Part shown: positions 3,695-20,529 of the stretch, in pieces
How the letters are laid out: each line of letters begins with the position of its first letter
Position numbering within the stretch: the first letter of the stretch is position 1
DNA from: a virus
Direction: 5' to 3' (one strand)
Virus record (IMG/VR): IMGVR_UViG_3300049856_000303
Coordinates: 1-21,371 of that record
DNA: 21,371 nucleotides
Program-made: the position numbers and the translations under genes
Notes under the pieces: generated by a model
Databases searched by the model: none
Seen by the model: only the letters and a program-made list of their open reading frames with translations
Told to the model about the DNA's origin: nothing

Positions 3695-6043
3695 ATGGCT
3701 AATACCGTTTCATTACTGGTACGCCAACAGCTACCAGAATTTATCCGATCTGATTTTGATACCTTTGCTACATTCATCGAAGCATATTATGCGTGGATGG
3801 ATCAGACAGGTAACACCATCGATTTAAGCAAAAACATTCCGAACTACATGGACTTGGATCGGACATTGGACAGTTTCATTGAATTTTTCACAAAGCAGTT
3901 TTTGCCACTATTCCCACCGGATCGTCTAAGCAACCCGACATTCTTCGTTCAACACGCGAAAGAATTCTACCGTACAAAGGGAACCGAAAAGGCAGTCAAG
4001 TTACTATTTCGTTTATTGTATAATCAGAATATCGATGTGTTCTACCCTAAAACAAGTGTCTTGCGGGCATCCACTAGTGGGTGGACCGGAACTCCTTCCT
4101 TGCGCCTCGACCCAACGATGTGGACCATCCAATATGGAGATGGAACCACGACCCGTTTTCGTGCTCTTGATACTTCCCTAGGGGTAACGCCAACAGTATA
4201 TTTGAACGGGGTGCTACAATCAACGGGATATCGTCATTCCCCGAATGAACCGTTCTTGATTTTCGACACCGCTCCGGCATTGGGCGTAGAGCTGAAAGTG
4301 ACCTACATAGGCAACGAATTGACCGACCTGTTTGGAACAAATGCCATTGTGGTGCGCTTCGTGGGGCAAACCTCTGGGGCATCCGTAGTCTCAGAAACCC
4401 TACAAGAAATTATATCTGATACCATCACTCAATTGGACTTGGCTGTTTCCTCCCCTCAAGGTACCTTTACTCAATTTGAAATTGTCAAAGGACGTTGGGT
4501 GTATGACACATCCACTAATGCCTATGTGGACATCTACGGTAGGTTGCAATCCTACTTGGCATCCATCACCCTGGTGAACGGCGGCCTGGGATATAACGTC
4601 GGTGATCCTGTGATTGTTACTGGGGGGTTCCCTGCGAATACCGCTACGGCCGTCGTGGATGAAATTTTCTCCGCGCTCATTTCGAACATCACCGTCGTCA
4701 CAGGAGGGGCCGGATATCAACCGGGGCAAGCCTGTTATATCACCTCGACTCCTAACACAGGGTTGAATGTCTTTGTGTTATCTGTGGATACGTCCGGTAA
4801 TGTGCATCCGAATTCCTATCCTATGAACCAGGATGTTATGACTCTCTGGGCAAATACCGTCATGTCGAACCCAGACTACTACTTTACCCCGGGTCTCTCA
4901 GAGAATGTTAATACAATCATGTCAATAGCTTTCACAGATATGATATTCGGGAAGCAACCTATTGAACGATTGGGCCCGATCTCGACCGTGACTATTACAA
5001 GCAGCACGACGGTGTTCAATCCCGCTCCAACCCTGGCAGTCGATGCTCCTATCGTGGTCGTTACCGGCATCAATGCTAATAGCAATGTCGCTACAGCGAA
5101 CGTGTCGTTGGCGTATTTTGGCATTATTGGTAAAATGAATGTAGTGTCGGGTGGTTCACAATATCAGGTTGGTGATGAAGTTACGTTTGAAAATATTCCA
5201 GGGGTAGGATTAGGTATTGGTGCCGCCGCAGAAGTTACCAGTCTCCATTCTGCGAATTCAGGCATCAAGACAGCTAATTTTCGTCCTTCGCGTGTCACTG
5301 GTACCGTCACCGTTAATACCGCAGTATCGAATACCCAAGTGGTAGGCAGTGGTACGTTCTTTACGACTGAGCTTGTGGCAAACGATCATATCGAAATCAA
5401 TAGTGAATCGAGCTATGTCAGCACCATTATCAATGCTACACATATCACCGTGAATACAGCATTTACACGCAATTCAACCAGCAGACGCATGGGCATTTAT
5501 GGGCGCTATTTCATCGGGGGTATGAATTATAGGCAGAATAGTATGCCAACTGTGATTGTGTTGTCAAACAATCCTTCCGCTACGGGAGCAGTTATTCTTG
5601 CTGAGCTAGTTCTTTCTGGGGGTGCTTCGTTTCTGTTGGAACCACAAACTAAAGAACCTGTCGGAAAGATTAAGACCATTCGAATCACTAATCACGGATA
5701 CGGCTATCAATCGACCCCTACCATAAACCTAACAGGTAGTGGAAATGGGCGAGCGAACGCTGTCGCGGTAATGTTAAGCAATCTGTTTCAAGGTGCCGGA
5801 AGATATCGTAATACGGACGGATTCCTGAGTTCGGATCAAAAACTTCAAAATGAGGGATACTACACCACGTTTTCCTATGTGATTCGTTCACAGACGGAGT
5901 TGGCCAAGTATAAGTCTATTCTTAAGAACCTCGTGCATCCTGCTGGCGTGTCCCTGTGGGGGGAGTATGTGGTTGAGTCAGAAATTGCTGGAGAAAGCGG
6001 ATTGTCGGCGAATGTGGCAAATACCTTCCAAGCTTCCAGTTAG
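3695..6043 (+). CDS. 7: Baseplate wedge subunit, gp7-like
   Basis: A 782-residue protein, shorter than T4 gp7 (1032). The N-terminus is typical of the wedge protein at this locus in marine T4-like phages: LPEFIRSDFDTFATFIEAYY (13-32), MDLDRTLDSF (52-61) and HAKEFYRTKGTEKAVKLLFR (87-106), followed by a YPKTSVLRAS block. The C-terminus carries a second conserved block, DGFLSSDQKLQNEGYY (about 711-726), followed by a segment ending in LVHPAG. Between them are beta-rich repeat units at about 289-350, 475-515 and 658-694. gp7 clamps gp10, gp8 and the gp6 ring in T4. No Shine-Dalgarno sequence is present in the 20 bases before the ATG, and the gp6 stop is 5 bases away, so translation is probably coupled. 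The family call is good; strict orthology to T4 gp7 is less sure. Confidence 0.82.
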   Translation: MANTVSLLVRQQLPEFIRSDFDTFATFIEAYYAWMDQTGNTIDLSKNIPNYMDLDRTLDSFIEFFTKQFLPLFPPDRLSNPTFFVQHAKEFYRTKGTEKAVKLLFRLLYNQNIDVFYPKTSVLRASTSGWTGTPSLRLDPTMWTIQYGDGTTTRFRALDTSLGVTPTVYLNGVLQSTGYRHSPNEPFLIFDTAPALGVELKVTYIGNELTDLFGTNAIVVRFVGQTSGASVVSETLQEIISDTITQLDLAVSSPQGTFTQFEIVKGRWVYDTSTNAYVDIYGRLQSYLASITLVNGGLGYNVGDPVIVTGGFPANTATAVVDEIFSALISNITVVTGGAGYQPGQACYITSTPNTGLNVFVLSVDTSGNVHPNSYPMNQDVMTLWANTVMSNPDYYFTPGLSENVNTIMSIAFTDMIFGKQPIERLGPISTVTITSSTTVFNPAPTLAVDAPIVVVTGINANSNVATANVSLAYFGIIGKMNVVSGGSQYQVGDEVTFENIPGVGLGIGAAAEVTSLHSANSGIKTANFRPSRVTGTVTVNTAVSNTQVVGSGTFFTTELVANDHIEINSESSYVSTIINATHITVNTAFTRNSTSRRMGIYGRYFIGGMNYRQNSMPTVIVLSNNPSATGAVILAELVLSGGASFLLEPQTKEPVGKIKTIRITNHGYGYQSTPTINLTGSGNGRANAVAVMLSNLFQGAGRYRNTDGFLSSDQKLQNEGYYTTFSYVIRSQTELAKYKSILKNLVHPAGVSLWGEYVVESEIAGESGLSANVANTFQASS
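4559..4765 (+). repeat. GxGY-type repeat units in gp7, first block
   Basis: From residue 289 of the gp7-like protein, two units read LVNGGLGYNVGDPVIVTGG and VVTGGAGYQPGQACYITST. They share the glycine-tyrosine turn plus strand pattern with the gp6 module. A more degenerate unit (VVSGGSQYQVGDEVTF) lies near 5140-5190. Confidence 0.65.
5666..5776 (+). repeat. GxGY-type repeat unit in gp7, second block
   Basis: Residues 658-694 of the gp7-like protein read KTIRITNHGYGYQSTPTINL, then a glycine-rich turn and an alanine-rich strand (ANAVAVML). This is the copy closest to the gp6 and gp8 modules. Confidence 0.7.
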
Positions 6044-6047
6044 ATCG

Positions 6048-6055
6048 TATAAATA
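6048..6055 (+). promoter_or_regulatory. Late promoter motif TATAAATA before gp8
   Basis: An exact match to the T4 late -10 consensus TATAAATA, 4 bases after the gp7 stop. By T4 spacing, transcription would start at about 6060-6061, giving a leader of roughly 16 bases that contains AAGGAAA (6067-6073) ahead of the gp8 ATG at 6077. It is the best-matching motif of the five found between genes. Confidence 0.8.
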
Positions 6056-6076
6056 GACAATTGGATAAGGAAATTT

Positions 6077-7417
6077 ATGGCGAATAATTTTTCAAATATC
6101 TCAAGGCGCCTTGGGTACGAACGTGCCTTTACCTTCTTTGACAGCTTTGTTACCACAGCCAATGATGCTGCGGTAGGCTACATCATGCTGGGCCGCAGTC
6201 TGCCTTGGGATGCCAACGATACGGCTCCTGCGATCTATGACACCGAGAATACCCTCTTCGACACCTACAATAACTTCCTAGGCGGAAAGAGAATCACAGG
6301 TAATGACATCTATCTCGTAGTGCCAAGACGCAATTGGGTTGCCAATACGGTTTGGACACAGTACGATGACGATAGCAACACCCAGTTCTCTTCCGGCAAC
6401 TCCATGTTTGTCTATGCTAGCGGTGGCAATGTCTATAAGTGCTTGGATAACGCAAATGGCGCGTATTCGACTATTGAGCCGGCGAATAACTACACCAGTG
6501 CCAATGGATTTACCTCACCAGGAGACGGGTACACCTGGAAGTACATGTATAAGGTGCCAAGCACAAGCAAGTTTTTGACTTCTACGTGGATGCCTGTGCC
6601 GTTGACTCAGACCTCGGCATATTTTGGATTTGCAAATAACCTCGTCGCAGGTGCGATTTCTAGAGTGATCCTCACCAATCGAGGTAACGGGTATTCAAAT
6701 ACCAACACCACTATCCAGGTCACAGGTTCAGGTACGGGCGCGAATGTCACAGCAAACGTCAATGCCGCTGGCAATGTCCAATCGATTACTCTCAATGCGA
6801 GAGGATCGGGGTATTTAAGGCAGAATACACAAGTTCGGGTCGTCGGCTCAGGAGCTAATTCAACAATTCGAATGGTACTATCACCGTACGGTGGTCATGG
6901 GTTCAACCCAGCCCGCGAATTGGGTGCCAATACAGTCATGATTTCAGTTAAGGTGGGAGATGTCGATTCTTCTGAGGGAGGAACGATTACCGCCAACAAC
7001 GATTTTAGACAAATCGGGTTGTTGATGCGTCCTCATAAATATGGGGAGGATGTCGCGGTAACCGCGGCCAGTGCAAACATTGCAGTCAGAATGGTTACAC
7101 AGATAGTGCTCACGTCAGGTCCATCCTATCTTAAAGATGAGATAGTCTATCAGGGTAGTAACGTAGCCTATTCAACCTTCTCAGCTAATGTCTCAGATGT
7201 CTTCACCAATGCCATTGAAACAACCCATCGTCGCGGAGCGATTATTCCCGGTACCTTACTTATAGGCAATACGTCAGGCATTTCTCGTACAGTAGTGGCC
7301 ACCACAACCCCAGATTTAGCAGAAGAATCCGGCGATCTGGTCTACACTGAAAATCGTGGCGCAGTGACGCGAACTGACGGCCAGGCCGAATGGGTAAAGA
7401 TTGTTCTGAACTTCTAA
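6077..7417 (+). CDS. 8: Baseplate wedge subunit gp8
   Basis: A 446-residue protein, longer than T4 gp8 (334). The N-terminal two-fifths has clear gp8 features: AVGYIMLGRSLPWDAND (about 34-50), GGKRITGNDIYLVVPR (about 69-84), WTQYDDD, NVYKCLDNANGAYSTIEP and DGYTWKYMYKV (about 151-161). gp8 dimers form part of the wedge and bind gp7 and gp10 in T4. Residues 192-268 are a two-unit glycine/tyrosine repeat that accounts for much of the extra length. The C-terminal end (YTENRGAVTRTDGQAEWVKI) matches the end seen in cyanophage-type gp8 proteins. AAGGAAA at 6067-6073 fixes the start, and an exact TATAAATA lies just upstream, so gp8 probably heads its own late transcript. Confidence 0.92.
   Translation: MANNFSNISRRLGYERAFTFFDSFVTTANDAAVGYIMLGRSLPWDANDTAPAIYDTENTLFDTYNNFLGGKRITGNDIYLVVPRRNWVANTVWTQYDDDSNTQFSSGNSMFVYASGGNVYKCLDNANGAYSTIEPANNYTSANGFTSPGDGYTWKYMYKVPSTSKFLTSTWMPVPLTQTSAYFGFANNLVAGAISRVILTNRGNGYSNTNTTIQVTGSGTGANVTANVNAAGNVQSITLNARGSGYLRQNTQVRVVGSGANSTIRMVLSPYGGHGFNPARELGANTVMISVKVGDVDSSEGGTITANNDFRQIGLLMRPHKYGEDVAVTAASANIAVRMVTQIVLTSGPSYLKDEIVYQGSNVAYSTFSANVSDVFTNAIETTHRRGAIIPGTLLIGNTSGISRTVVATTTPDLAEESGDLVYTENRGAVTRTDGQAEWVKIVLNF
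6650..6880 (+). repeat. GxGY-type repeat module in gp8
   Basis: Residues 192-268 of gp8 hold two units, LTNRGNGYSNTNTTIQVTG and LNARGSGYLRQNTQVRVVG, each followed by a glycine-rich turn. The module sits right after the conserved gp8 core and looks like an inserted beta domain. Confidence 0.72.
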
Positions 7418-7459: not shown

Positions 7460-10400
7460 ATGGCTATCGATTTGACCCAAGACCCGTACAATGACGACTT
7501 TGCTCCTGAGAAGAACTATCATAAGATTCTTTTCAAGCCTAGTTTCGCGGTCCAAGCGCGAGAACTCACGCAATCTCAGACAATTCTTCAGGATCAAGTC
7601 AGCAAATTCGGGAATGGTATTTTTCAAAATGGTTCCATCGTTACTGGTGGACAAACCATGCTGGAATCGACTGCCACAAAGTATGTCTGCATCGAAGCCA
7701 CTGACCCTTCTGGTGCTGTGGTTGATGTTGCTAATTTTATTGGAAAATTCGTTGTTGATGGTGACGGTCAGGGCATCCGTGCTTATGTAATTGCCGGGGC
7801 CGCGGCCACACTCACTTCTCCAACCTACTTGATCGTTAAGTACACCTCTGGACAAATTTTCAACACCACGCTTGTACAGCCCATTAAGACAGAAGATAGC
7901 GCATACTCCGTCAGCATTATTGCGAGTCTCTCAACTCCAACCAACTTTACTGATGTCATTAGTGGATTAAAGTTTGGGGATGCGTCTATTTGCAGTATCG
8001 ATGAAGGTGTGTTCTATGTCAATGGGTATTTTGTTCAAGTATCTCCTCAGACTGTTGTGCTTGATGCGTTTAGCAATACCCCAACCTATCGTATTGGACT
8101 TCAGATCGATGAAGCACTCGTGGATGCCACGATGGATGCGTCATTGTTGGACCCTGCCCAAGCAGCAACCAACTTCCAGGCGCCTGGAGCGGATCGTTAC
8201 CAAATCACTCTTACGTTTGTTAAGCGTTCCCTCACATCGGATGATGATACCAAATTCATCGAATTAGTTCGCGTGACCGGCGGAACACTGACCAAGAAGG
8301 TGGTCTATCCTGTCTATTCCGCATTAGAAGAAACTCTCGCTCGTCGCACAAACGATCAATCGGGATCATTTACTGTGCGTCCGTTTAAGGTGGCCACCAC
8401 CCCTCATGCCACGTATGCAAATGCGTACAACATCATCATTGAACCTGGCAAAGCCTATGTGCAGGGGTATGAATTTGAAACAATTGGTCCCACGACAATC
8501 AAGGCAGAGCGGGCCCGTTCGGCTGCTAACGTCACCAACTACAACAGCACCATTGACTACCAGAATTGGATCGAAGTAACAAAACTTGTTGGTCCAATCC
8601 CATTTAAGACGCTCCAGCCTGGTGTGTTACATTGTGTGAGCACCGCCAACATTGCTACAGCAAATGCTGTTGTTGCTGCCAATACCTCAATGGGTACTCT
8701 TCGTATTCGTGCGCTTGATTATCAGAGCGATGCTAATGGCACTTCAATCAGCACCGCAGTATGGCGAGCGTATGCGTTCGATGCGAACGTCTCTCAAAGC
8801 ATCACGGCTAATTGTTCGGCCACTGGAAATTCCACCGTCATGCGTTTGGCACCAAACTTCTCAGCTATTGCCAATGCGTATGCGGGTGTGAAGTTTACTA
8901 TCACAACTCATGCAGGAGTTGCTGTCAATGAAACCCATACAATAGGTCGCTATGACGGCCCAACCAATAATGCGTTTTTACAAGGCACAGAGACCTTTGC
9001 CTTCGGTACGCCAAGTACGGCGACACGGTATCGCCTCGACTATGAATTCAAAGATAGTGAGGCCATCGTCTATGCAAATACCACCACCAACCAGCATCTC
9101 TTTGCTACATCAATGGATGTGGCTTCATCCAGCAAAGAAGCCTTTTTGGTAGACCGATATGAGGGCACATTCCTTACTGATACAGGATTCAATCGATTGA
9201 TTATGGAATTACCGTACCCAACAATTGCCGACCAAGCAGTTGTGGGTGGTTCGCCATTGACCAATACAGAGTATTTCGGTCGTAAAGTCTTCACTGGTCA
9301 GGGATTCACCGCGAATGTCACGACAATAACCAGTGCAGCGGGAATCACCAGTGCTGTCAATGGCTCATTGTCGGGGTCTGATGCAGTGGACAATATCCTC
9401 GTGGTGGTAAGAAATAATACCGGCGCCTCCATTGCCAACAATCAAGTTATCAACTTTTCGTCTGGAAATCCAGCGGGAAATACCGTATCGGTCACCACCG
9501 TCAGTAACACATCTACCTGGACAATCACCGTTCCAAACATGAACAGTGCTTCTTCGGCTGATGTGTATGTGAAAGTGAAGCTGCCGTATTCTCATGCAAT
9601 CGGAAACTTACTCAAGAGTAAGACCGCACGAATTGCCAATGTCGCTAGTGGTTTGAATTCGGGTGGTACTCAAATTCCAGATGCAACAGGATTGGTTCAG
9701 TGGTATTCTCAGGGTGCAGGTACTTTGGGTGCTCAAATCACGATCTACGCGAACTCCGCAGCATGGTTGAACCTCAAGGACCCATCAAAGTCCCAATCAC
9801 TCTTTACGTCTGATGTAACTACGCTCCGTAAGGTCATTGATGTGGGTTCGAATTTGATTGAGGACGGTAACGTGGCGATTGCAGCCGATATCACCAACCG
9901 TTACATCTTGGATAATGGACAGCGTGACAATGCTTACGATCATGCGTCCATCACATTGAAGCCTACCTCTCAGGGACCAAGTGGTAATGTAGTCATTTAT
10001 GTCGATTATCTCACCCACTCAGGATTGGGATATTTGACTGTTGATTCTTATGCGTCTGCTAACATCGGGTATGCCAATATTCCTTCATACACCTCTGCCA
10101 CGACAGGCACAGTGTATAATCTACGTGATTGTGTTGATTTCCGCCCTCGTCGCCAAGATGCCGACTTTAATAACATTTTCGATGAAGAAATCTTTGGTAT
10201 CTCTGGTCTCACATTCGAAACCGACTTCTCATATTACTTGGCGCGTATCGACAAGATCATTTTAACCAAGGACCGAGTGTTCGAAGTACTCGCGGGAGTC
10301 CCATCATTGTTCCCCGTCTCCCCAGCGGACAAAGACAACGCCATGACGTTGTACACCCTTATACTACCTCCATATACCCCAAACACAAAAGAAATTCGTC

Positions 10401-13400
10401 AACGCTACAATGATAACCGTCGCTACACCATGCGCGACATTGGTACGCTTGAAAAGCGTATCTCGAATTTGGAATACTACACGTCCTTGAACTTGCTCGA
10501 ACAGACCGCCAAGAACCAAGAGATCACGGATGACACGGGCGCCAACCGTTTCAAGAATGGTATCTTGGTTGATCCATTCACAGGACACAAGATCGGTGAT
10601 GTGTTGAATATTGATTATCTGTGTTCTGTGGACCCACAGAATCAGGAATTGCGGCCACCATTCCAGCCTCGCAGTCTTGATCTAGAGTTGAGTGCGACAA
10701 ACTCAACGAATTATGGTCGTAAAGGTGCGTTTGTTACCTTGCCATACACCGTGAGAACATTCATCGACCAATCGATTGCGTCCAAGTCGATCAATGTCAA
10801 CCCATTTAACACTGTCTCATTCATTGGGCAGATCAAGCTTGATCCCACTTCCGATAATTGGGTTGACAGAAACCAGGCACCTGATGTCAACGTCAACTTA
10901 GAAGGTGATGCTGACGCTTGGGAAGCTCTTGCCTTTACGGTAAATAAGAATGCGGCTAATGCTAAGTTTGGTGCAACCACTTTTGGTACCGTGTGGAATG
11001 ACTGGAACACAACCTTCTACGGAGAAAAGAAGCAACCAGATAAGATCATCGTACCTGGACAACGTGGTTGGCTTGGGGCAATCGGTCACTATGTACCTGT
11101 CTATGGCAACGTACTGAAGCGCAGCACGACAGAAATCACCCAGACCACAGCTCGTCAAGGTACAAAGTCACAATTCGGTACCGAAGTTATCACGGAATCC
11201 ATCGGCAACAAAGTCAAAGATGTCTCAGTTATTCCATACATTCGTTCGCGTGGTGTCTTGTTTGTCGGAAAGATGTTTGCCCCAAACACTAACCTCTATG
11301 CCTTCTTCGATGAGACTGCGGTGACCACCTACTGCAATAGGCTCAATGTTGTGAAGGTGGCCGATAATACAGTCGTGTATAAGGACGATTATCAGGATTC
11401 TGAAGCTGTGCGTGTATGGGACCCTGCCAGAGGCGCCAATGCTGCCTTTGGACAAGTCGTGCTCAGCCGCAAAGAATCAACTCACACTAATGTTAGTATA
11501 GTCAGTGTGTCTGGAGGCGACGACGACAATGTTGCCAACGCCTACTTCATGCACTCCACCAATTCAACCTTCTTGATTGGTATGACGAGTGGTGCCAACT
11601 CTCGTATCTCAGGGTACTACCACAACTCAGGGTTCGCCCAGAATCCAAACGTGAGCAGCATTCTTCTATCTCATGATGTTGCCAACTCCAATGTGGCATT
11701 CTCCAATACATTCCTTGCGGGAAAAACCATCTACTTTACCGCAGGTAGCGGGCTTGGACAGTCCTCAGTGATAACGTCTTATAATGCTAACACACGAAAT
11801 GTCTCATTCAGTCCAGCACTAACTACAGCCATAGGCACCGATACTGCATACTCGATTGGACAGTTCCAGACAGATTATCGTGGTGAATTTACTGGTATCT
11901 TTGTAATTCCATCGACCGATGCAGTACGTTTCCGTACTGGAGAACGGCAACTGACATTCGTTGACTCCTTTGCTGGTACCTTGGAAGGATCGGGCACCAA
12001 CGGTTCAGTGACTTATCAGGCTTCAGGTCTTCTTCAGACATTAGAAAATACCATCATCTCAACTCGTGTGCCAGCAATTCAGCGCACCGTGCTTGGACAA
12101 TCCAAGACCACAGTAACCAGCAAAATTACCGATACCGTTGTTGGAAAGATTCAAGTTGGATATTGGGACCCTCTTGCCCAGACCTTCTTGGTTGACCAGA
12201 CATTCCATCCATCTGGTGTGATGGTTACCGGTATTCGTTTGCTTATTAAGAGTGCCGATCCTAACATTCCAATGGAATTACAGTTACGCCCTGTGGTCAA
12301 CGGGTTCCCACACTCCTCAGCGGTCATTCCTGGTTCAGATGTGGTCTTGAATGCTAGTGACATCGTGACCTGCTCAGAAGAAACGCTTGCTGCCAAGTAC
12401 GCTGCTGGCGGCAATCCTCTGGATGATGCTACGTTATATACCCAAGTAGACTTCAGTGGACCTGTGTTCTTACAGCAGGGAGCTGAATACTGCGTGGTCT
12501 TGATGGCAAACTCCGTTAAGTATCAAGTCTATGTGTCACGCATGGGAGACAAGATCCTCGGCACAGACCGATTGATTTCTTCGCAGCCTTACCTCGGTGT
12601 GTTGTTCAAGTCACAGAACTCAACCACCTGGAATCCAATCCAGGAAGAGGATTTGACCTTCCGATTGCTGTATGCAAAATTTGATACCACTGTACAGTCC
12701 AACGTGGAATTCCAATTGGCGGCATCGAATGCCATTACGGCGAACGTACCCCTCGACACCTTCTATGTGTCTTCTGGAAATCTTGTGTTGCCTAATACTA
12801 GTATTGATGCCATGTATGCGTCAACCACCGCCGCAGGGATCAAAGAAGGCAACAAGATAATTCCTCTAGGTGAAAATATTTATTTTGATGACACACTTGG
12901 CCGTCGTGTGGCCACAAGCACCACCAGTTCATTCAAGTTACGTATGTTACTCTCTTCTTCTAATGAGGACGTGTCCCCAGTGGTCGATCTTGACCGAGTC
13001 AGTCTGTTGGGTATTGAGAACCTGGTGAATAACCTCGAATTAAGCAACAGTGCTGTGGTCGTCATTAGTTCTAGCAATAATTGGTTCAGTGCTGCGGGTC
13101 TGAGTGTGACTATTTCTGGAGGTGGTGGCAGTGGTGCGAATGCGTACATTGCCAACACACAAATTGACAGCAATAATCGTGTACTTGCCAATGTGGTTGT
13201 GGATTCCAATGGTAGCGGGTATACATCCGCCCCAACCATCACAATTTCTGGTAACAACAGCCTCACTGCAAACATTCAGTGCATTGGTGAGAACCGATCT
13301 TCTGGAGGACCAGCTTTTGCTCGTTATATCACTCGTAAGGTAACACTATCTGATGGCTTAGATGCAGGAGACTTCCGTGTGTTCTTTGCTGCCTACAAAC

Positions 13401-13708
13401 CATCAAATGCCAACATTTACGTGTATTACAAGATTCTATCGGCCGATGATACCGAGGTATTCGATAACAAGGGATATCAACTCATGACCATCATCCAGGG
13501 GGCGAATAACCTCTCCCTCAACCAGGATGACGTGAAGGACTTCGTGTATGCCCCAGGTACCGGAAACGTGGCTGATAACCGAGTGCAATATGGATCGTTT
13601 GCGAGCTTCAAGAACTTTGCGATCAAGATTGTCATGACATCAACAGATACTACTAAGGTGCCACGAATCAGAGATTTCCGAGTTGTCGCCCTTCCATCTC
13701 TTTCATAG
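7460..13708 (+). CDS. Giant DUF4815-type virion structural protein
   Basis: A 2082-residue protein that fills nearly a third of the window. The N-terminus is the DUF4815 signature of T4-like marine phages: DPYNDDFAPEKNYHKILFKP (7-26), then a QARELTQSQTILQDQ stretch and GSIVTGG by about residue 63. A second family block, TLYTLILPPYTPNTKEIRQR followed by YTMRDIGTLEKRI and NLEYYTSL, lies at about 962-1012. Later blocks are VRFRTGERQLTFVDS (about 1487-1501), DPLAQTFLVDQTF (about 1572-1584) and SRMGDK (about 1693), then LTFRLLYAKF (about 1732). Residues 1881-1941 carry the glycine/tyrosine repeat, followed by ARYITRKVTL and VYYKILSADD. The position after gp8 suggests that it replaces outer-baseplate functions filled by gp9-gp11 in T4 and anchors fibres; that role is inferred. 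GGAG at 7449-7452 supports the start. Confidence 0.88.
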   Translation: MAIDLTQDPYNDDFAPEKNYHKILFKPSFAVQARELTQSQTILQDQVSKFGNGIFQNGSIVTGGQTMLESTATKYVCIEATDPSGAVVDVANFIGKFVVDGDGQGIRAYVIAGAAATLTSPTYLIVKYTSGQIFNTTLVQPIKTEDSAYSVSIIASLSTPTNFTDVISGLKFGDASICSIDEGVFYVNGYFVQVSPQTVVLDAFSNTPTYRIGLQIDEALVDATMDASLLDPAQAATNFQAPGADRYQITLTFVKRSLTSDDDTKFIELVRVTGGTLTKKVVYPVYSALEETLARRTNDQSGSFTVRPFKVATTPHATYANAYNIIIEPGKAYVQGYEFETIGPTTIKAERARSAANVTNYNSTIDYQNWIEVTKLVGPIPFKTLQPGVLHCVSTANIATANAVVAANTSMGTLRIRALDYQSDANGTSISTAVWRAYAFDANVSQSITANCSATGNSTVMRLAPNFSAIANAYAGVKFTITTHAGVAVNETHTIGRYDGPTNNAFLQGTETFAFGTPSTATRYRLDYEFKDSEAIVYANTTTNQHLFATSMDVASSSKEAFLVDRYEGTFLTDTGFNRLIMELPYPTIADQAVVGGSPLTNTEYFGRKVFTGQGFTANVTTITSAAGITSAVNGSLSGSDAVDNILVVVRNNTGASIANNQVINFSSGNPAGNTVSVTTVSNTSTWTITVPNMNSASSADVYVKVKLPYSHAIGNLLKSKTARIANVASGLNSGGTQIPDATGLVQWYSQGAGTLGAQITIYANSAAWLNLKDPSKSQSLFTSDVTTLRKVIDVGSNLIEDGNVAIAADITNRYILDNGQRDNAYDHASITLKPTSQGPSGNVVIYVDYLTHSGLGYLTVDSYASANIGYANIPSYTSATTGTVYNLRDCVDFRPRRQDADFNNIFDEEIFGISGLTFETDFSYYLARIDKIILTKDRVFEVLAGVPSLFPVSPADKDNAMTLYTLILPPYTPNTKEIRQRYNDNRRYTMRDIGTLEKRISNLEYYTSLNLLEQTAKNQEITDDTGANRFKNGILVDPFTGHKIGDVLNIDYLCSVDPQNQELRPPFQPRSLDLELSATNSTNYGRKGAFVTLPYTVRTFIDQSIASKSINVNPFNTVSFIGQIKLDPTSDNWVDRNQAPDVNVNLEGDADAWEALAFTVNKNAANAKFGATTFGTVWNDWNTTFYGEKKQPDKIIVPGQRGWLGAIGHYVPVYGNVLKRSTTEITQTTARQGTKSQFGTEVITESIGNKVKDVSVIPYIRSRGVLFVGKMFAPNTNLYAFFDETAVTTYCNRLNVVKVADNTVVYKDDYQDSEAVRVWDPARGANAAFGQVVLSRKESTHTNVSIVSVSGGDDDNVANAYFMHSTNSTFLIGMTSGANSRISGYYHNSGFAQNPNVSSILLSHDVANSNVAFSNTFLAGKTIYFTAGSGLGQSSVITSYNANTRNVSFSPALTTAIGTDTAYSIGQFQTDYRGEFTGIFVIPSTDAVRFRTGERQLTFVDSFAGTLEGSGTNGSVTYQASGLLQTLENTIISTRVPAIQRTVLGQSKTTVTSKITDTVVGKIQVGYWDPLAQTFLVDQTFHPSGVMVTGIRLLIKSADPNIPMELQLRPVVNGFPHSSAVIPGSDVVLNASDIVTCSEETLAAKYAAGGNPLDDATLYTQVDFSGPVFLQQGAEYCVVLMANSVKYQVYVSRMGDKILGTDRLISSQPYLGVLFKSQNSTTWNPIQEEDLTFRLLYAKFDTTVQSNVEFQLAASNAITANVPLDTFYVSSGNLVLPNTSIDAMYASTTAAGIKEGNKIIPLGENIYFDDTLGRRVATSTTSSFKLRMLLSSSNEDVSPVVDLDRVSLLGIENLVNNLELSNSAVVVISSSNNWFSAAGLSVTISGGGGSGANAYIANTQIDSNNRVLANVVVDSNGSGYTSAPTITISGNNSLTANIQCIGENRSSGGPAFARYITRKVTLSDGLDAGDFRVFFAAYKPSNANIYVYYKILSADDTEVFDNKGYQLMTIIQGANNLSLNQDDVKDFVYAPGTGNVADNRVQYGSFASFKNFAIKIVMTSTDTTKVPRIRDFRVVALPSLS
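13100..13282 (+). repeat. GxGY-type repeat module in the giant virion protein
   Basis: Residues 1881-1941 hold LSVTISGGGGSGANAYI and VVDSNGSGYTSAPTITISG, the most canonical copy of the G-x-G-Y-T-x-A-P-T-hydrophobic motif in the window. It lies just before the conserved C-terminal domain. Confidence 0.75.
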
Positions 13709-15008: not shown

Positions 15009-15833
15009 ATGCTAATTCAATCACTCACCACTGACAAAATTTCACTCATCACTACGACTACTGCCAACACTGATATTGTTGCATCCTTTGTGGATCGTGA
15101 CCAATCAACAGGCATAGTGGGACTTGCCGGCAAGCAACTCACCGCGGTGAACACAGCAACAACCACTGATATTGTTGCCGCACCTGGGGCGTCAACCACA
15201 AGGAATCTCAAGGCACTGAATATTCGCAACAAACATGCGTCAACTAATAACACCATTACCGTACAGTATAATGCGAATTCAGTTCTCTATGAACTGCATA
15301 AAGCCACGTTGCTAGCTGGAGAAGTTTTACAGTACATTGAAGGTTTGGGGTTCTTCAAGACCTTCGATACCACGAGAGATTCGCGCAACTTTACAACTTT
15401 GTCCGATCAATTGTTTGCCGATGGAAATAATTGGACCACTATTGTTGGATTAACGTGCCCGGTAAAAGCGAATGTGGCCTATGGATTTTTTGCGTTTATT
15501 CCTCATATTACTGATGCCACCACAACGGGAGCGCAATTTGGTGTGAAACTAACCTCAGCACCTACGGCCTTGCGAGTGGGTACCATTGATACTGTCAGCC
15601 CTAGCGCAACCTCGGCCACGTTCTCTTCGGGTGTCGCTCAAGTAGTAGATACTGCCATCACGGCGCAAACTAGTGGGCCTGGTGCCACTCAAGCTCCCGC
15701 ATTGATTGCTGGCTATTTTGTTCCGAGTGCCGATGACGTGTTTGAAATGAGAGCAAATTGTGAACCTGGAACAGCCGGAACATTGACTACAAAAGCGGGT
15801 TCATTGCTACAAGTCTTCAAACAGACCTCCTAA
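15009..15833 (+). CDS. Modular tail adhesin A (paralogue of the next gene)
   Basis: A 274-residue protein. Residues 7-117 form a beta-rich module shared with the following gene, including DR(D/N)QS at 29-33, TTDIVAAP at 52-59, TVQYNAN at 84-90 and a closing GLGFF. This module appears in many unrelated phage tail proteins and has no established activity. Residues about 125-274 form a different domain with an aromatic/glycine-rich beta pattern (NVAYGFFAFIPH, ATTTGAQFGVKL), ending in LLQVFKQTS. It resembles the C-terminal beta-sandwich of fibre or structural proteins. The ATG at 15009 has GGGGAAGG upstream (14992-14999), somewhat far at 9 bases. It is probably part of the virion and involved in host binding; that is inferred from position and composition. 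Confidence 0.78.
   Translation: MLIQSLTTDKISLITTTTANTDIVASFVDRDQSTGIVGLAGKQLTAVNTATTTDIVAAPGASTTRNLKALNIRNKHASTNNTITVQYNANSVLYELHKATLLAGEVLQYIEGLGFFKTFDTTRDSRNFTTLSDQLFADGNNWTTIVGLTCPVKANVAYGFFAFIPHITDATTTGAQFGVKLTSAPTALRVGTIDTVSPSATSATFSSGVAQVVDTAITAQTSGPGATQAPALIAGYFVPSADDVFEMRANCEPGTAGTLTTKAGSLLQVFKQTS
15027..15359 (+). repeat. Shared N-terminal adhesin module, copy 1
   Basis: Residues 7-117 of adhesin A align without gaps to residues 7-117 of adhesin B (15861-16193), with about half the residues identical by hand count. The proteins cannot be aligned by eye after this point. Confidence 0.85.
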
Positions 15834-15842
15834 AGGAACATT

Positions 15843-16721
15843 GTGATTCTTTTAACTAACACGACTGATAAATTATCTCTCGTTACTGACTTTACCGGCA
15901 ACGTCAAGGTTAGTACGATTTTTATAGATCGTAACCAATCAAGCGGAAACGTAGGTTTGGCTGAAAGGCAATTAACCACGATCACCACCGCTGCCACCAC
16001 TGATATTGTGGCGGCACCAGCAGCAACCACCACACGTAAGGTCAAGGAACTTCGTGTCCATAATGCCAACACCACATCCCCTATGGATGTGACAGTTCAA
16101 TATAATGCCAATGGTTTACTCTATGAGTTCATCTCTTCTCGGCTGATGCCGGGTGATGCACTGACTTACGCAGAAAATACAGGGTTCAAGCTCGTCACAA
16201 AGCAAAAATTCTTCGATGAAATTCGGGTGATGTGGCCCACGTCTACAATTTCTGGAGAAGTGATTTGCAACGGTAACAACAACGCAGGTCAAGCGCATAT
16301 GCCGGGGTTCAGTATTAAGGGGTTGAAACCGTTTACCACTTATCATTTTCTCTTTTCGGGAATTACAATCAGTGCTGCGACAATCGGTGCGAGAGTTAAT
16401 ATAGGAAGGGATCAACAATCCGCCGGGTCTGTCGTAGGCGGTGGATTTGTTGCTATCACGAACAACAACGTAACTGCTACAATAGTCGGAACTGCGGCTG
16501 ATTATGTATCAGGAGCGGGGACTTTAGTGAGTGTGGGTACCGGAACTCTTGATCCCGGTGGGTTGCACTTCTATTCTGGTACATTTACCACGAGTGAATT
16601 TGGTGAGCGAGATCATGTTGAGGTATGGTTATTTTCGGAAACTTCTAACCAACAAGTTAAAATGCAACAGGGCGCGTGGTATCGTGTATGGGAAGCCACT
16701 GGCTTTGTTGCAGGTTTGTAA
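15843..16721 (+). CDS. Modular tail adhesin B (paralogue of adhesin A)
   Basis: A 292-residue protein that probably starts at GTG 15843: AAAGGAA (15832-15838) is correctly spaced and the residues from the GTG align with the start of adhesin A. Residues 7-117 are the shared module (TTDKLSL, IDRNQSSGNVGLA, TTDIVAAP, TVQYNAN, ENTGF). Residues about 122-292 are unrelated in sequence to the tail of adhesin A. They begin FFDEIRVMWPTSTISGE and contain a TTYHFLFSG strand, long glycine/serine loops and a C-terminal GAWYRVWEATG. The duplicated module with swapped ends suggests that the N-terminus docks on the same site and the C-terminus recognises different targets. That is inference. A 51-residue gene follows after 12 bases. 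Confidence 0.8.
   Translation: MILLTNTTDKLSLVTDFTGNVKVSTIFIDRNQSSGNVGLAERQLTTITTAATTDIVAAPAATTTRKVKELRVHNANTTSPMDVTVQYNANGLLYEFISSRLMPGDALTYAENTGFKLVTKQKFFDEIRVMWPTSTISGEVICNGNNNAGQAHMPGFSIKGLKPFTTYHFLFSGITISAATIGARVNIGRDQQSAGSVVGGGFVAITNNNVTATIVGTAADYVSGAGTLVSVGTGTLDPGGLHFYSGTFTTSEFGERDHVEVWLFSETSNQQVKMQQGAWYRVWEATGFVAGL
15861..16193 (+). repeat. Shared N-terminal adhesin module, copy 2
   Basis: Second copy of the 111-residue module described for adhesin A. The DNA has diverged substantially, so the duplication is old or the two copies were acquired separately. Confidence 0.85.
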
Positions 16722-16935: not shown

Positions 16936-19900
16936 ATGCCCTTTATATGGAACAGCAGCCCTAACATTCCCGCCGCCAATCTCCCGCAACCTACAGGTCC
17001 AACGCAAATTTCAACTGAGGCGCATGTTGTTGCCAATACGGTTGAAGCTGGTGGCACACTCCTCTATAACACCGCTGCGGTCGGATTTGATGTGATTTAT
17101 GAGGTTCCCACCCTCAATGTGGGCAATCTCAGTGTTGCCAATCTCCAAGGGGGAATTCCTCCTCTATTGAACGTATCTCCCATACTCTATAATGTCGCCA
17201 CAGGCACAGTCTCCCATCTAAGTTCAGGTGTGACGCCAGGGTCGTACGGTGGAGCTGCCATTGTTCCGTCCCTAGTAGTCAATGCCACTGGGCATATCTC
17301 TTCACTCACCAATACAACTATTCTGCTCACCGGGGATAATCTTATCTCGAATGGCAACGGTTCCCTCTTTATTGGTAACACCTTAACTGGCAGATTCGAT
17401 ACGCGACCAATCACCCCAGGAACGGGAGTGTTGGTCAATAATGATAAAGGAGAAATCACTCTTGTTGCCACAGGCGATCCTATTCTTTCGGGACATCGCT
17501 ATGGAAGTGCCTGGATATCGACACTAGACCAGCTTCCCTCTTCTAATTTTGCCCACTTAACAAGTGTTGCGTATGGTGGAGCCCTAAACCGTTATGTGGC
17601 AGTGGGAATCAATGAACTTGAACCCGCCAATTCTGGTTTTTCTATAACCAGTCCTGATGCCATCAATTGGTCCACTAAAAACTTTATTCCAGCAAACTTA
17701 CTTAAAATGGTGTGGACTGGGTATCTTTTTGTGGGAGTTGGGGAAAATGGTTTAGTCATGACCAGCCCAGATGGTATCACCTGGACTCAGAGGGCAGCCT
17801 ATGCCGGTACTTGGTATGGTGTGGCCTGGAATGGTTACACACTTGCCGCCATAGGACCAACCAACAAAGCGATGACTAGTTCTGATGGTATCAACTGGAC
17901 GAGTCAAACCCATACTGGTGGTAGCGGATTCAAAGATATCACTTGGTTTGCCGGGATCTTTGTTGCTGTAGGTGATGGTGGAAAGATGATGACCAGTCCT
18001 GATGGTGCCACCTGGACTAATAGAGCTACAGGTGGCGACCCGTTTCAGCCAGCAACGGCCCTTGCTTGTGTGACATCTGGTAGTACTGTTGTAGTAGCCG
18101 CTGGAATAGGATTTATTCAGTATAGTGCAAACGGAATTGTTTATATGGGTACTCCTTATCCAGGCGGGTTCACTGGCGGCGCCGAGGCATTAACTTTTGG
18201 TGCTGGTACATATGTCGGAGTAGGCGTAGATGTCATGACAAGTGCTGATGGCATCACTTGGACCGACAGGACTCCGGCAGTAAGTGGACAAATGTTCGAC
18301 GTGATTTATGCGAATGGTCTCTTCGTTGCAGTGGGGCGTTGGGTCATGACCAGTCCCGATGGTATCACCTGGACGAACCGATATGTAAACCCTATTCCGA
18401 GACAAGCTATTGCATGGAACGGAAGTACCTTTGCCGCAGTGACCGGTGACGGAGTTCGAACTAGTCCCGATGGTGCTGCGTGGACACTACATAGTGCTCT
18501 TGCAAGTGATTGGCGCAGTGTGGCATGGGGTGGTGCAGTCTTTGCCGCAGTAGGTACCAGCAGCGTCATGACCAGTCCCGATGGTATCACCTGGACTGGC
18601 AGAACTTCGGTGGCAGGCTCCTGGCAAAGTATTGCATGGAATGGAACGGTGTTTGCGGCCGTGGGTCCAAGCATTGTACAAACCAGTCCAGATGGCATCA
18701 CTTGGACTGCAAGAAGTTCAGTGGCGGGTTCCTGGAGTGGCATCACCTGGAATGGTCTAGTCTTTGTTGCCGTGGGTCCAAGCATTGTACAGACGAGTCC
18801 TGACGGAATTACTTGGACTTCTAGAACGACTGTCAGTGGCAGTTGGGTAGATGTGTCGTGGAATGGCGCTGTCTTTGCCGCAGTAGGTACCAATATCGCT
18901 ATGACGAGTCCCGATGGGAATGTCTGGACTTCGCGGGCCACGGTCAATGGTTCGTGGGTAGCGATTGAGTGGGACGGCAGTGTTTTTGCCGCAGTGGGCA
19001 GTGACGGCCGTATTATGACCAGTCCTGATGGTCTGCATTGGACACAACGAACCAATGCACCTTCTGGTATTTGGCAAGACCTTGCGTGGAGTGGGAATGT
19101 GTTCGCTGTGGTCAGCGGAGACGCAAATAGCAATACTGCCATTATGACCAATCACTATGATGCGGTCACCTCTGTTGCCGGCCGAGTTGGTCGTGTGATA
19201 CTGAATACCAATGATGTGTCTGAAAATGCCGCCGGTCCATTGTATTTTACGAACGAACGCGCCCGGCTAGCACTTAGTAACACCTTCCCAATCAGCTATG
19301 ACACACTTACGGGTATTTTTGGTCATGCGAATTCTGGTGTTACGGCTGCATCCTATGGTAGCGCGGCCGCCGTTGCGGTTGTCACGGTCGATGTGCGTGG
19401 GCATGTCACGAATGTTGTTGGCACACCTATTGCTATTTCTAGTAGTGTCATCAGTGAATCGGCAGGCGGTCCATTTTTCCATACGGCAGCGCGAGTACGC
19501 GGTAATGTAAGCAATACTGCTCCAATCAACTATGATGCGACTACCGGGATATTCAGTCATGCGTTGTCGGGAGTGACGGCAACGACCTATGGCAATACTT
19601 CATTTGTTCCTGTGACCACAGTAAATTCAACAGGACATGTGACTTCTGTGGTCAATACTGCCATCGTTATCACTTCAAATGCGGTGACCGCCACACTCAC
19701 GAGTGATAATGCTGGTGCAAACAACCTGGGTGCCTTCCTATCTGTCGTGGGACCAACCGGAGGCGTCACGGCCCCTGTCACTACAGATGTTTATACCAAC
19801 GTCTGTTCCATGATTGTCGAGGCCGGCGACTGGGACATGGAAGGATCACTTGAACTCAGTGTAGGGGCAACCACTGCGGCAACACGATTAACCGGTGGAG

Positions 19901-20127
19901 TCAGTCTTACTACCAATGCCATCGATATATCAAATGCCGGAGGCTTTATGGCTTATCAAACCGCAGCATTTGTCGTAAGCCAAAAATACATTTTCCCAAC
20001 CGGAAGAAGACGTATTTCTCTCTCAGCCGCAACTAGAGTAAATTTGGTTGGGGCCCTCACCTTCACCACATTAGGTGGGGCGACCTGGGGTGCCAATAGT
20101 TTCCTATCAGCAAGAAGAACTCGATAG
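16936..20127 (+). CDS. Large tail fibre with two predicted seven-bladed beta-propellers
   Basis: A 1063-residue protein, probably a host-recognition fibre. Residues about 82-132 are a shaft repeat (PILYNVATGTVSHLSSGVT, ending in NATGHISSL). From about 205 to 745 run fourteen units of about 37 residues with the pattern W-x-x-hydrophobic-A-W-N-G-x-x-F-A-A-V-G, then M-T-S-P-D-G-I-T-W-T. This is an Asp-box-like beta-propeller blade, and fourteen units fit two seven-bladed propellers. Residues about 785-834 and 863-912 carry two more shaft repeats (YDTLTGIFGHANSGVTAAS and YDATTGIFSHALSGVTATT), with fibre motifs such as ENAAGPLYFTNERAR. The C-terminal domain has EAGDWDMEGSLEL (about 962-974), a cap found on other phage fibres. 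CAGGAG supports the start. No hydrolase residues are visible. Binding, probably to sugar or protein, is inferred. Confidence 0.85.
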   Translation: MPFIWNSSPNIPAANLPQPTGPTQISTEAHVVANTVEAGGTLLYNTAAVGFDVIYEVPTLNVGNLSVANLQGGIPPLLNVSPILYNVATGTVSHLSSGVTPGSYGGAAIVPSLVVNATGHISSLTNTTILLTGDNLISNGNGSLFIGNTLTGRFDTRPITPGTGVLVNNDKGEITLVATGDPILSGHRYGSAWISTLDQLPSSNFAHLTSVAYGGALNRYVAVGINELEPANSGFSITSPDAINWSTKNFIPANLLKMVWTGYLFVGVGENGLVMTSPDGITWTQRAAYAGTWYGVAWNGYTLAAIGPTNKAMTSSDGINWTSQTHTGGSGFKDITWFAGIFVAVGDGGKMMTSPDGATWTNRATGGDPFQPATALACVTSGSTVVVAAGIGFIQYSANGIVYMGTPYPGGFTGGAEALTFGAGTYVGVGVDVMTSADGITWTDRTPAVSGQMFDVIYANGLFVAVGRWVMTSPDGITWTNRYVNPIPRQAIAWNGSTFAAVTGDGVRTSPDGAAWTLHSALASDWRSVAWGGAVFAAVGTSSVMTSPDGITWTGRTSVAGSWQSIAWNGTVFAAVGPSIVQTSPDGITWTARSSVAGSWSGITWNGLVFVAVGPSIVQTSPDGITWTSRTTVSGSWVDVSWNGAVFAAVGTNIAMTSPDGNVWTSRATVNGSWVAIEWDGSVFAAVGSDGRIMTSPDGLHWTQRTNAPSGIWQDLAWSGNVFAVVSGDANSNTAIMTNHYDAVTSVAGRVGRVILNTNDVSENAAGPLYFTNERARLALSNTFPISYDTLTGIFGHANSGVTAASYGSAAAVAVVTVDVRGHVTNVVGTPIAISSSVISESAGGPFFHTAARVRGNVSNTAPINYDATTGIFSHALSGVTATTYGNTSFVPVTTVNSTGHVTSVVNTAIVITSNAVTATLTSDNAGANNLGAFLSVVGPTGGVTAPVTTDVYTNVCSMIVEAGDWDMEGSLELSVGATTAATRLTGGVSLTTNAIDISNAGGFMAYQTAAFVVSQKYIFPTGRRRISLSAATRVNLVGALTFTTLGGATWGANSFLSARRTR
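17179..17330 (+). repeat. Fibre shaft repeat before the propellers
   Basis: Encodes residues 82-131 of the propeller fibre. It shares the frame P-I-x-Y-x-x-x-T-G-x-x-x-H-x-x-S-G-V-T, then S/T-Y-G and V-x-x-x-G-H-hydrophobic-T/S-S/N, with two units after the propellers. Confidence 0.7.
17542..19182 (+). repeat. Fourteen tandem propeller-blade repeats (about 111 bp each)
   Basis: Units of about 37 codons; neighbouring late blades are exactly 111 bp apart where I measured. Eleven carry a T-S-x-D-G-x-x-W box. Blade 1 has TSPDAINW, blade 5 is degenerate (QYSANGIVY) and blade 14 ends in MTNHYDA. Blades 9-12 are the most alike. Exact DNA repeats include 32 bases at 18343-18374 and 18565-18596 (222 bp apart) and 23 bases at 18658-18680 and 18769-18791 (111 bp apart). 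Confidence 0.85.
19289..19438 (+). repeat. Fibre shaft repeat after the propellers, unit 1
   Basis: Encodes residues about 785-834 (PISYDTLTGIFGHANSGVT, then VDVRGHVTNVVGTPIAI). It is the same 50-residue unit as at 17179-17330 and 19523-19672, preceded by an ENAAGPLYFTNERAR motif. Confidence 0.75.
19523..19672 (+). repeat. Fibre shaft repeat after the propellers, unit 2
   Basis: Encodes residues about 863-912 (PINYDATTGIFSHALSGVT, then VNSTGHVTSVVNTAIVI). It is 234 bp from unit 1, a multiple of three, so the whole segment of about 78 residues including the preceding ESAGGPFFHTAARVR is duplicated. Confidence 0.75.
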
Positions 20128-20196: not shown

Positions 20197-20529
20197 ATGG
20201 CTGGGTTTGTTCCCTTAGAAATTGAACAGTGGTCTACCTTTTCCCGCATTATTACTGTCAAAACCGATGATGGGTTGGCACAGAACCTTTCGGGATATGT
20301 TGTCACATCACAGATGAGAAAATCCTATGATTCTCTCACGGCCGTGACCCTTCCGGCTTCACTCTCTGATGCGTCAAATGGGGAAATTACTCTAGCTATG
20401 ACTTCAGCCAATACCGGAAATGTGTCACCTGGTCGCTACCTCTATGATGTGATTACCACTTCGCCTGGAGGTGTGGTACAACGATTGATTGAAGGAATCG
20501 TGGTCGTCAGTGCAGGAGTAACACACTAA
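20197..20529 (+). CDS. Small Ig-like/BppU-type tail protein
   Basis: A 110-residue all-beta protein. The layout is common in phage fibre operons: an N-terminal strand pair (IEQWSTFSRIITVKTDDG), then LSGYVVTSQMRKSYD at about 34-48, a GEITLAMT strand at about 66-73, GRYLYDVITTSPGGVVQRLI at about 82-101, and a final strand IVVVSAGVT. Proteins of this shape usually act as a fibre-base or baseplate-attachment domain. The start at 20197 is preferred to the out-of-frame ATG at 20192 because only 20197 opens a long frame and GAGG lies 6 bases upstream. The stop overlaps the next start by one base (TAATG), so the two genes are coupled and their products may form one fibre. Confidence 0.75.
   Translation: MAGFVPLEIEQWSTFSRIITVKTDDGLAQNLSGYVVTSQMRKSYDSLTAVTLPASLSDASNGEITLAMTSANTGNVSPGRYLYDVITTSPGGVVQRLIEGIVVVSAGVTH

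Follow-up and report, generated by a model that had tools for sequence, protein, structure and literature searches.

The window analysed here is an entire virus record of 21,371 bases, probably a genome fragment, and its gene set is made up of T4-like baseplate genes. The T4-like baseplate wedge genes gp25 (1247-1636), gp6 (1650-3689) and gp8 (6077-7417) were detected together with the gene for a further wedge protein (3695-6043) and the gene for a DUF4815 protein of 2082 aa (7460-13708), whose best named relatives belong to Pelagibacter phage Mosig, Methylophilales phages Melnitz and Prochlorococcus phage P-HM1. The DUF4815 gene is followed by three unassigned fibre-like genes and then by the gene for a tail fibre of 1063 aa (16936..20127, plus strand), an open reading frame that thus lies 3' of gp25, gp6, gp8 and the DUF4815 gene. 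Two adjoining genes (15009-15833 and 15843-16721) with clearly related N-terminal halves are a tandem duplication of putative fibre or baseplate proteins. The small gene downstream of the fibre gene (20197..20529, plus strand) matches phrog_1084 (4.6e-23) and phrog_3304, 'L-shaped tail fiber protein assembly' (8.8e-18), and is a possible fibre-assembly factor. An antisense frame of 281 aa (18306-19151, minus strand) overlies the propeller repeats described below and is probably a by-product of repeated codons.

The fibre protein can be divided into successive parts, all encoded on the plus strand. The N-terminal module (MPFIWN..., aa 1-64; 16936..17127) recurs at 49-64% identity in 11 viral loci, on fibres that bear either propellers (L001 and L009 among them) or an unrelated head, and it is probably responsible for baseplate attachment. 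It is followed by the proximal shaft, with YGxxxxVP..V..TGHI repeats (aa 65-178; 17128..17469) of a type that recurs after the propellers, and by the entry segment GDPILSGHRYGSAW (aa 179-202; 17470..17541), in which GDPILSGHRYG and W193 are invariant in four orthologues. This segment contains the putative closing strand D' (aa 193-197; 17512-17526), a strand in the AlphaFold2 model. Propeller 1 (units 1-7, aa 203-486; 17542..18393) and propeller 2 (units 8-14, aa 487-749; 18394..19182) were delimited by profile units, the model and structure matches. The exit segment RVGxxxLNTNDVxEN (aa 750-776; 19183..19263) is conserved in the four orthologues and leads to the distal shaft repeats (aa 777-905; 19264..19650), recognised from the sequence and a phrog_36881 match within aa 750-1063. 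The protein ends in a C-terminal tip (EAGDWD...RRRISLS, aa 906-1063; 19651..20124). The original prediction regarded the propellers as the head of the fibre; they lie instead in mid-fibre, between two shaft segments and followed by an exchangeable tip of 158 aa.

The count of fourteen units of about 37 residues was confirmed. Units were cut by hand and aligned by MAFFT, giving 14 units of 36-48 aa at 17542-19182 (aa 203-749). The profile built from them found 14 domains in the real protein with 673.9 bits, a circular score from a profile made of the very units it scores, and 11.0 bits in the best of 200 shuffles. Iterated over 171 loci, the profile again returned 14 units in the fibre. At the DNA level the repeat is diverged, with a 111-nt period and a match of just 77%, and the count of 14 is kept in the relatives L001 (84% identical), L009 (about 50%) and L216 (about 44%), which come from other contigs, so an assembly artefact is unlikely. 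The 77% match also speaks against recent DNA amplification in the window. Two adjacent units of L009 are identical at 105/114 nt, indicating recent amplification in that locus, with the total still at 14. Duplication of a whole propeller was rejected as well: units i and i+7 share on average 35% identity and other between-half pairs 34%, giving no sign that the second half was copied from the first. The one Pfam family to which every one of the 21 aligned relatives gave a match is DUF6242 (PF19755), of unknown function; the score of the fibre is borderline (27.6 bits for the whole protein and 31.2 for the module alone, cut-off 29).

The predicted Asp-box-like turn was found in 13/14 units, in each case as the short s-Asp-box SxDxxxW (units 1-13), compared with a mean of 1.25 and at most 6 in shuffles of the region. 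Unit 5 has a degenerate form of the box (SANGIVY), and unit 14 lacks one. The classical form known from sialidases, GH74 and Vps10, S-x-D-x-G-x-T-W, has 0 matches anywhere in the fibre protein, and across all arrays we counted 1995 short boxes versus 75 classical ones. The model places the box between the third and fourth strands (for instance, box 99-105 between strands 96-99 and 106-108), which is the position of the S/t-x-D/n-x-x-x-W/f/y pattern in s-Asp-box propellers. Since s-Asp-boxes usually occur in just one or two blades per propeller (PMC2716378), the near-complete set is distinctive; it is common to the wider array family.

Pattern searches of protein and DNA, together with phage records, gave 224 loci, whose units we counted by the iterated profile. 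Removal of duplicates and of arrays cut by contig ends left 209 uncut runs, with seven units in 112 of them, six in 18 and eight in 3. Above eight units, the commonest length was 14 (9 cases), and one run had 42. Propellers had been regarded as unusual for such a fibre; they are not rare in phage fibres, as arrays of exactly seven units dominate the viral contigs and a mid-fibre propeller trimer has been solved in the phi11 receptor-binding protein (RBP) (PMC4901313). Fourteen units without a linker were detected in the window, L001, L009, L216, L035, L026, L174, L175 and L080, and a linker of ~30 aa follows every seventh unit in L015, L022 and L010. The seventh unit is the shortest or is oddly ended in several arrays (36 aa in the window, 35 in L174, 34 in L080, and L035). 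Unit numbers other than multiples of seven also occur among the viral arrays (6, 11, 13 and 33-34 units), and these may reflect missed degenerate units.

The wider family includes several unusual proteins. L077 is a 1670-aa ORF of 42 units (six times seven) without linkers or any other recognisable domain, in which a seven-unit periodicity of identity was looked for and none was seen. L015 and L010 are adjoining giant ORFs on one contig (IMGVR_UViG_3300048598_000530): the first is 3173 aa or longer and combines an extended collagen-like stretch with five propellers (35 units, ~30-aa linkers), and the second has 2737 aa and 28 units. In Synechococcus phage B23 (MN695335) we detected an unannotated seven-unit propeller frame of 323 aa (L004, ~5860-6830, plus strand), where the antisense 'hypothetical' genes gp328 and gp329 are annotated instead. 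The propeller family also extends beyond phages, as similar arrays (L225-L255) were found in numerous bacterial genomes and in a single archaeal MAG.

The proposal of two seven-bladed propellers in tandem is supported by the array lengths, an AlphaFold2 model, Foldseek matches and a break in conservation. AlphaFold2 with three orthologues resolved the first propeller only (pLDDT 55-86) and left the second unresolved, the alignment being too shallow; the best matches of that model included both seven- and eight-bladed proteins. With 21 in-register rows of 14 units, the monomer model (pLDDT 81.5, pTM 0.63) predicted fourteen blades with strands in fours, units 7 and 14 being without a regular fourth strand. 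The same model has an extra N-terminal strand (model 15-19, aa 193-197) and a confidence dip between units 7 and 8 (model 307-309, aa 485-487). In some rows of the 21-row alignment, units 7 and 8 are separated by a linker. This biases the model towards a 7+7 arrangement, which is therefore not wholly independent of the unit counts. The best solved Foldseek matches included 2YMU, AIP1 (1NR0), Utp21 (4NSX) and the 7+7 enzymes of family GH74 (1sqj, 6p2o). A PDB sequence search with the window module alone returned nothing, and a search with the profile gave Ycf48 as the best match (5e-4).

Neither the 21-row model nor the unit counts of the fibre pointed to a solenoid, a single large ring or a number of units other than fourteen. 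A single fourteen-blade ring closed by the N-terminal strand would agree with the direct junction of units 7 and 8 in the fibre, and the closing strand, together with the fourth strand lacking at the opposite end, would suffice for one ring as well. We consider it very improbable, because array lengths cluster at seven, seven-bladed chains match each half of the model separately, conservation and irregular features shift at the 7/8 boundary, and deposited propellers reach at most twelve blades (PMC6805158). The regular 37-residue period and long linkerless arrays such as L077 could also be expected of an open solenoid or superhelix of sheets, but the closed-ring structure matches (Z about 27), the preference for seven units, the missing fourth strand at the array end and the complementary N-terminal strand make this reading barely credible.

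The two predicted propellers appear to be nested, such that the strand before unit 1 would close the second ring. In the VIA alignment, the seven-bladed YncE (2.5 A) and 7bie match model 20-306, and 5yzv (2.4 A) and 7big (2.5 A) span from 13-14 to 562-564 with 256-261 aligned residues; the second range is best read as the N-terminal strand together with units 8-14. This predicted closure was read from the alignment ranges and strand lists, not from coordinates. The same topology is described for Utp21, AIP1 and 2YMU, with a 14D-1A / 7D-8A connection and strand 14D ahead of blade 1 (PMC3897721). We infer that the chain enters and leaves the module at neighbouring points, so that the module, its ends meeting, could form a side arm of an uninterrupted shaft.

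The propeller module, proximal shaft and tip are swapped between related phages. L001 has propellers 82/86% identical to those of the window, with a proximal shaft of about 31-32% and a tip of 22% identity, while L009 has a tip of 88%, a shaft of 74%, propeller 1 of 43% and propeller 2 of 65% identity. L216 combines the propellers with an L001-type tip, so that the window-type tip is replaced in both L001 and L216. In L217, L218 and L220-L223, the N-terminal module of the window was detected in fibres that end in an unrelated, conserved head of ~400 aa with GWxxLxAxxxxSGxGG ... WYEVYAI ... LLLHR. The sharing of parts among L001, L009 and L216 and the unrelated heads show that the fibre is a mosaic of interchangeable parts, in which the propellers are one choice of working end. 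Among phage records, none with the same tip or the same N-terminus was found.

The two propellers differ in conservation. Among the four orthologues, propeller 1 has a mean identity of 43%, which may partly reflect poorer alignment, with ~37 gap columns per pair, and propeller 2 has 61% with ~5 gap columns per pair. The per-unit identities do not overlap (35-52% for units 1-7 and 54-72% for units 8-14), and this step marks the 7/8 boundary again. The sequence comparison suggests that more varied demands act on propeller 1, in line with a role in receptor contact. The dN/dS of the propellers versus L001 is 0.08, indicating purifying selection, and is approximate with dS >1. Variable blade positions mapped between the window and L001 showed no single clear face.

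The elements of the fibre are known singly: linkerless 7+7 propellers in WRAP, AIP1, Utp21 and GH74 proteins, and propellers in phage fibres or spikes in phi11 RBP, PhiKZ gp131 and endosialidases (PMC4901313). The WRAP propeller of Nostoc Npun_R6612 (2YMU), the top Foldseek match, likewise has fourteen linkerless blades in two sevens (PMC6805158, PMC9218822), but its blades are near-identical WD40 repeats on a STAND ATPase, whereas those of the fibre are diverged s-Asp-box blades. AIP1 (1NR0) and Utp21 (4NSX) also have two seven-bladed propellers, and in them an N-terminal strand completes blade 14 (PMC3897721), as proposed for the fibre, but they are eukaryotic scaffolds of WD40 sequence. In phi11 gp45 (RBP), a mid-fibre propeller with a proposed glycan-binding site is followed by a C-terminal 'tower' (PMC4901313); this siphophage protein differs in its single five-bladed propeller per chain and helical stem, and no sequence relation between it and the window fibre was found. 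The C-terminal domain of PhiKZ gp131 (4GBF), a proposed receptor binder at the baseplate periphery of a myophage, is also seven-bladed (PMC4901313), but is a single propeller at the C-terminus. The GH74 xyloglucanases (1SQJ, 2CN3) share the Asp-box 7+7 tandem arrangement (PMC2716378), but are enzymes with classical Asp-boxes, and matching conserved acids were not found in the fibre. No paper directly describing tandem propellers in phage fibres emerged from the literature searches, and a nested double s-Asp-box propeller in a T4-like shaft with exchange of parts was not found in the searchable literature. What is new is the arrangement of known parts, namely tandem propellers of the WRAP/AIP1 type and mid-fibre propellers of the phi11 type.

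The absence of a sialidase signature was supported. The whole fibre protein has no R[IL]P motif, no Arg triad was detected, and the predicted rings have seven blades and not the six of sialidases (GH33/GH58). Across the four orthologues, the propellers have no invariant Glu, Tyr or non-box Asp that could correspond to the two catalytic Asp of GH74: the invariant Asp residues are those of the Asp-boxes, and the invariant Arg residues follow the box Trp. These findings argue against a sialidase or a GH74-like enzyme, and the profile search of the PDB returned no GH74 chain at E<=0.1. We therefore regard it as improbable that the double propeller is a glycan depolymerase (e.g., GH74- or sialidase-like) cutting surface polysaccharide during adsorption, although GH74 xyloglucanases are among the fold matches (1sqj, 6p2o), the tailspike endosialidase of phage K1F is a trimeric propeller (PMC2716378, PMC4901313), and the poorly aligned propeller 1 could hide a site.

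With no enzyme signature or conserved catalytic acid found, binding is favoured over cleavage, as originally predicted, and receptor binding is the best inference. The most likely target of the propellers is a glycan or protein on the host surface, probably contacted through the faster-changing propeller 1. It is also conceivable, though unlikely, that the propellers are a spacer or stabilising bulge and that receptor binding falls to the C-terminal tip alone. The tip lies furthest out and is clearly swapped among relatives (88% vs 21-22% identity), and the dN/dS of the propellers is low. However, a passive part would not need two closed 7+7 rings, propeller 1 changes faster than the rest of the module and carries indels, the mid-fibre propeller of phi11 is a proposed receptor site (PMC4901313), and relatives put another large head on the same N-terminus in place of the module.

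Taken together, the fibre is, with a probability of roughly 70%, a structural tail or baseplate fibre of a T4-like phage, its shaft interrupted by two s-Asp-box propellers that form a receptor-binding, exchangeable module. In the proposed architecture, the chain would leave the proximal shaft at GDPILSGHRYG and lay down one strand (D'), and after the propellers it would run on into the distal shaft and then the tip. Each chain would thereby bear a side arm of two lobes, propeller 2 next to the shaft and propeller 1 beyond it, and the separate tip would give a second host contact. A trimer, displaying six propellers, is plausible. We also put forward, tentatively and with less than even confidence, a phage two-lobed adhesin cassette, in which propeller 2 would be a conserved adaptor closed by the strand entering from the shaft and the nested propeller 1 a fast-changing receptor binder; its ends would meet, making it insertable without breaking the shaft, and the design might be extended to the fibres with three to six propellers in other phages.

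The fibre provides a concrete architecture by which a T4-like phage may add a large binding domain in mid-fibre, and the unlike rates of change of the two propellers predict which one would meet the host. The seven-unit preference over some 200 viral arrays is a simple rule for annotation, and the fibre points to an abundant and almost unannotated class of phage propeller proteins.
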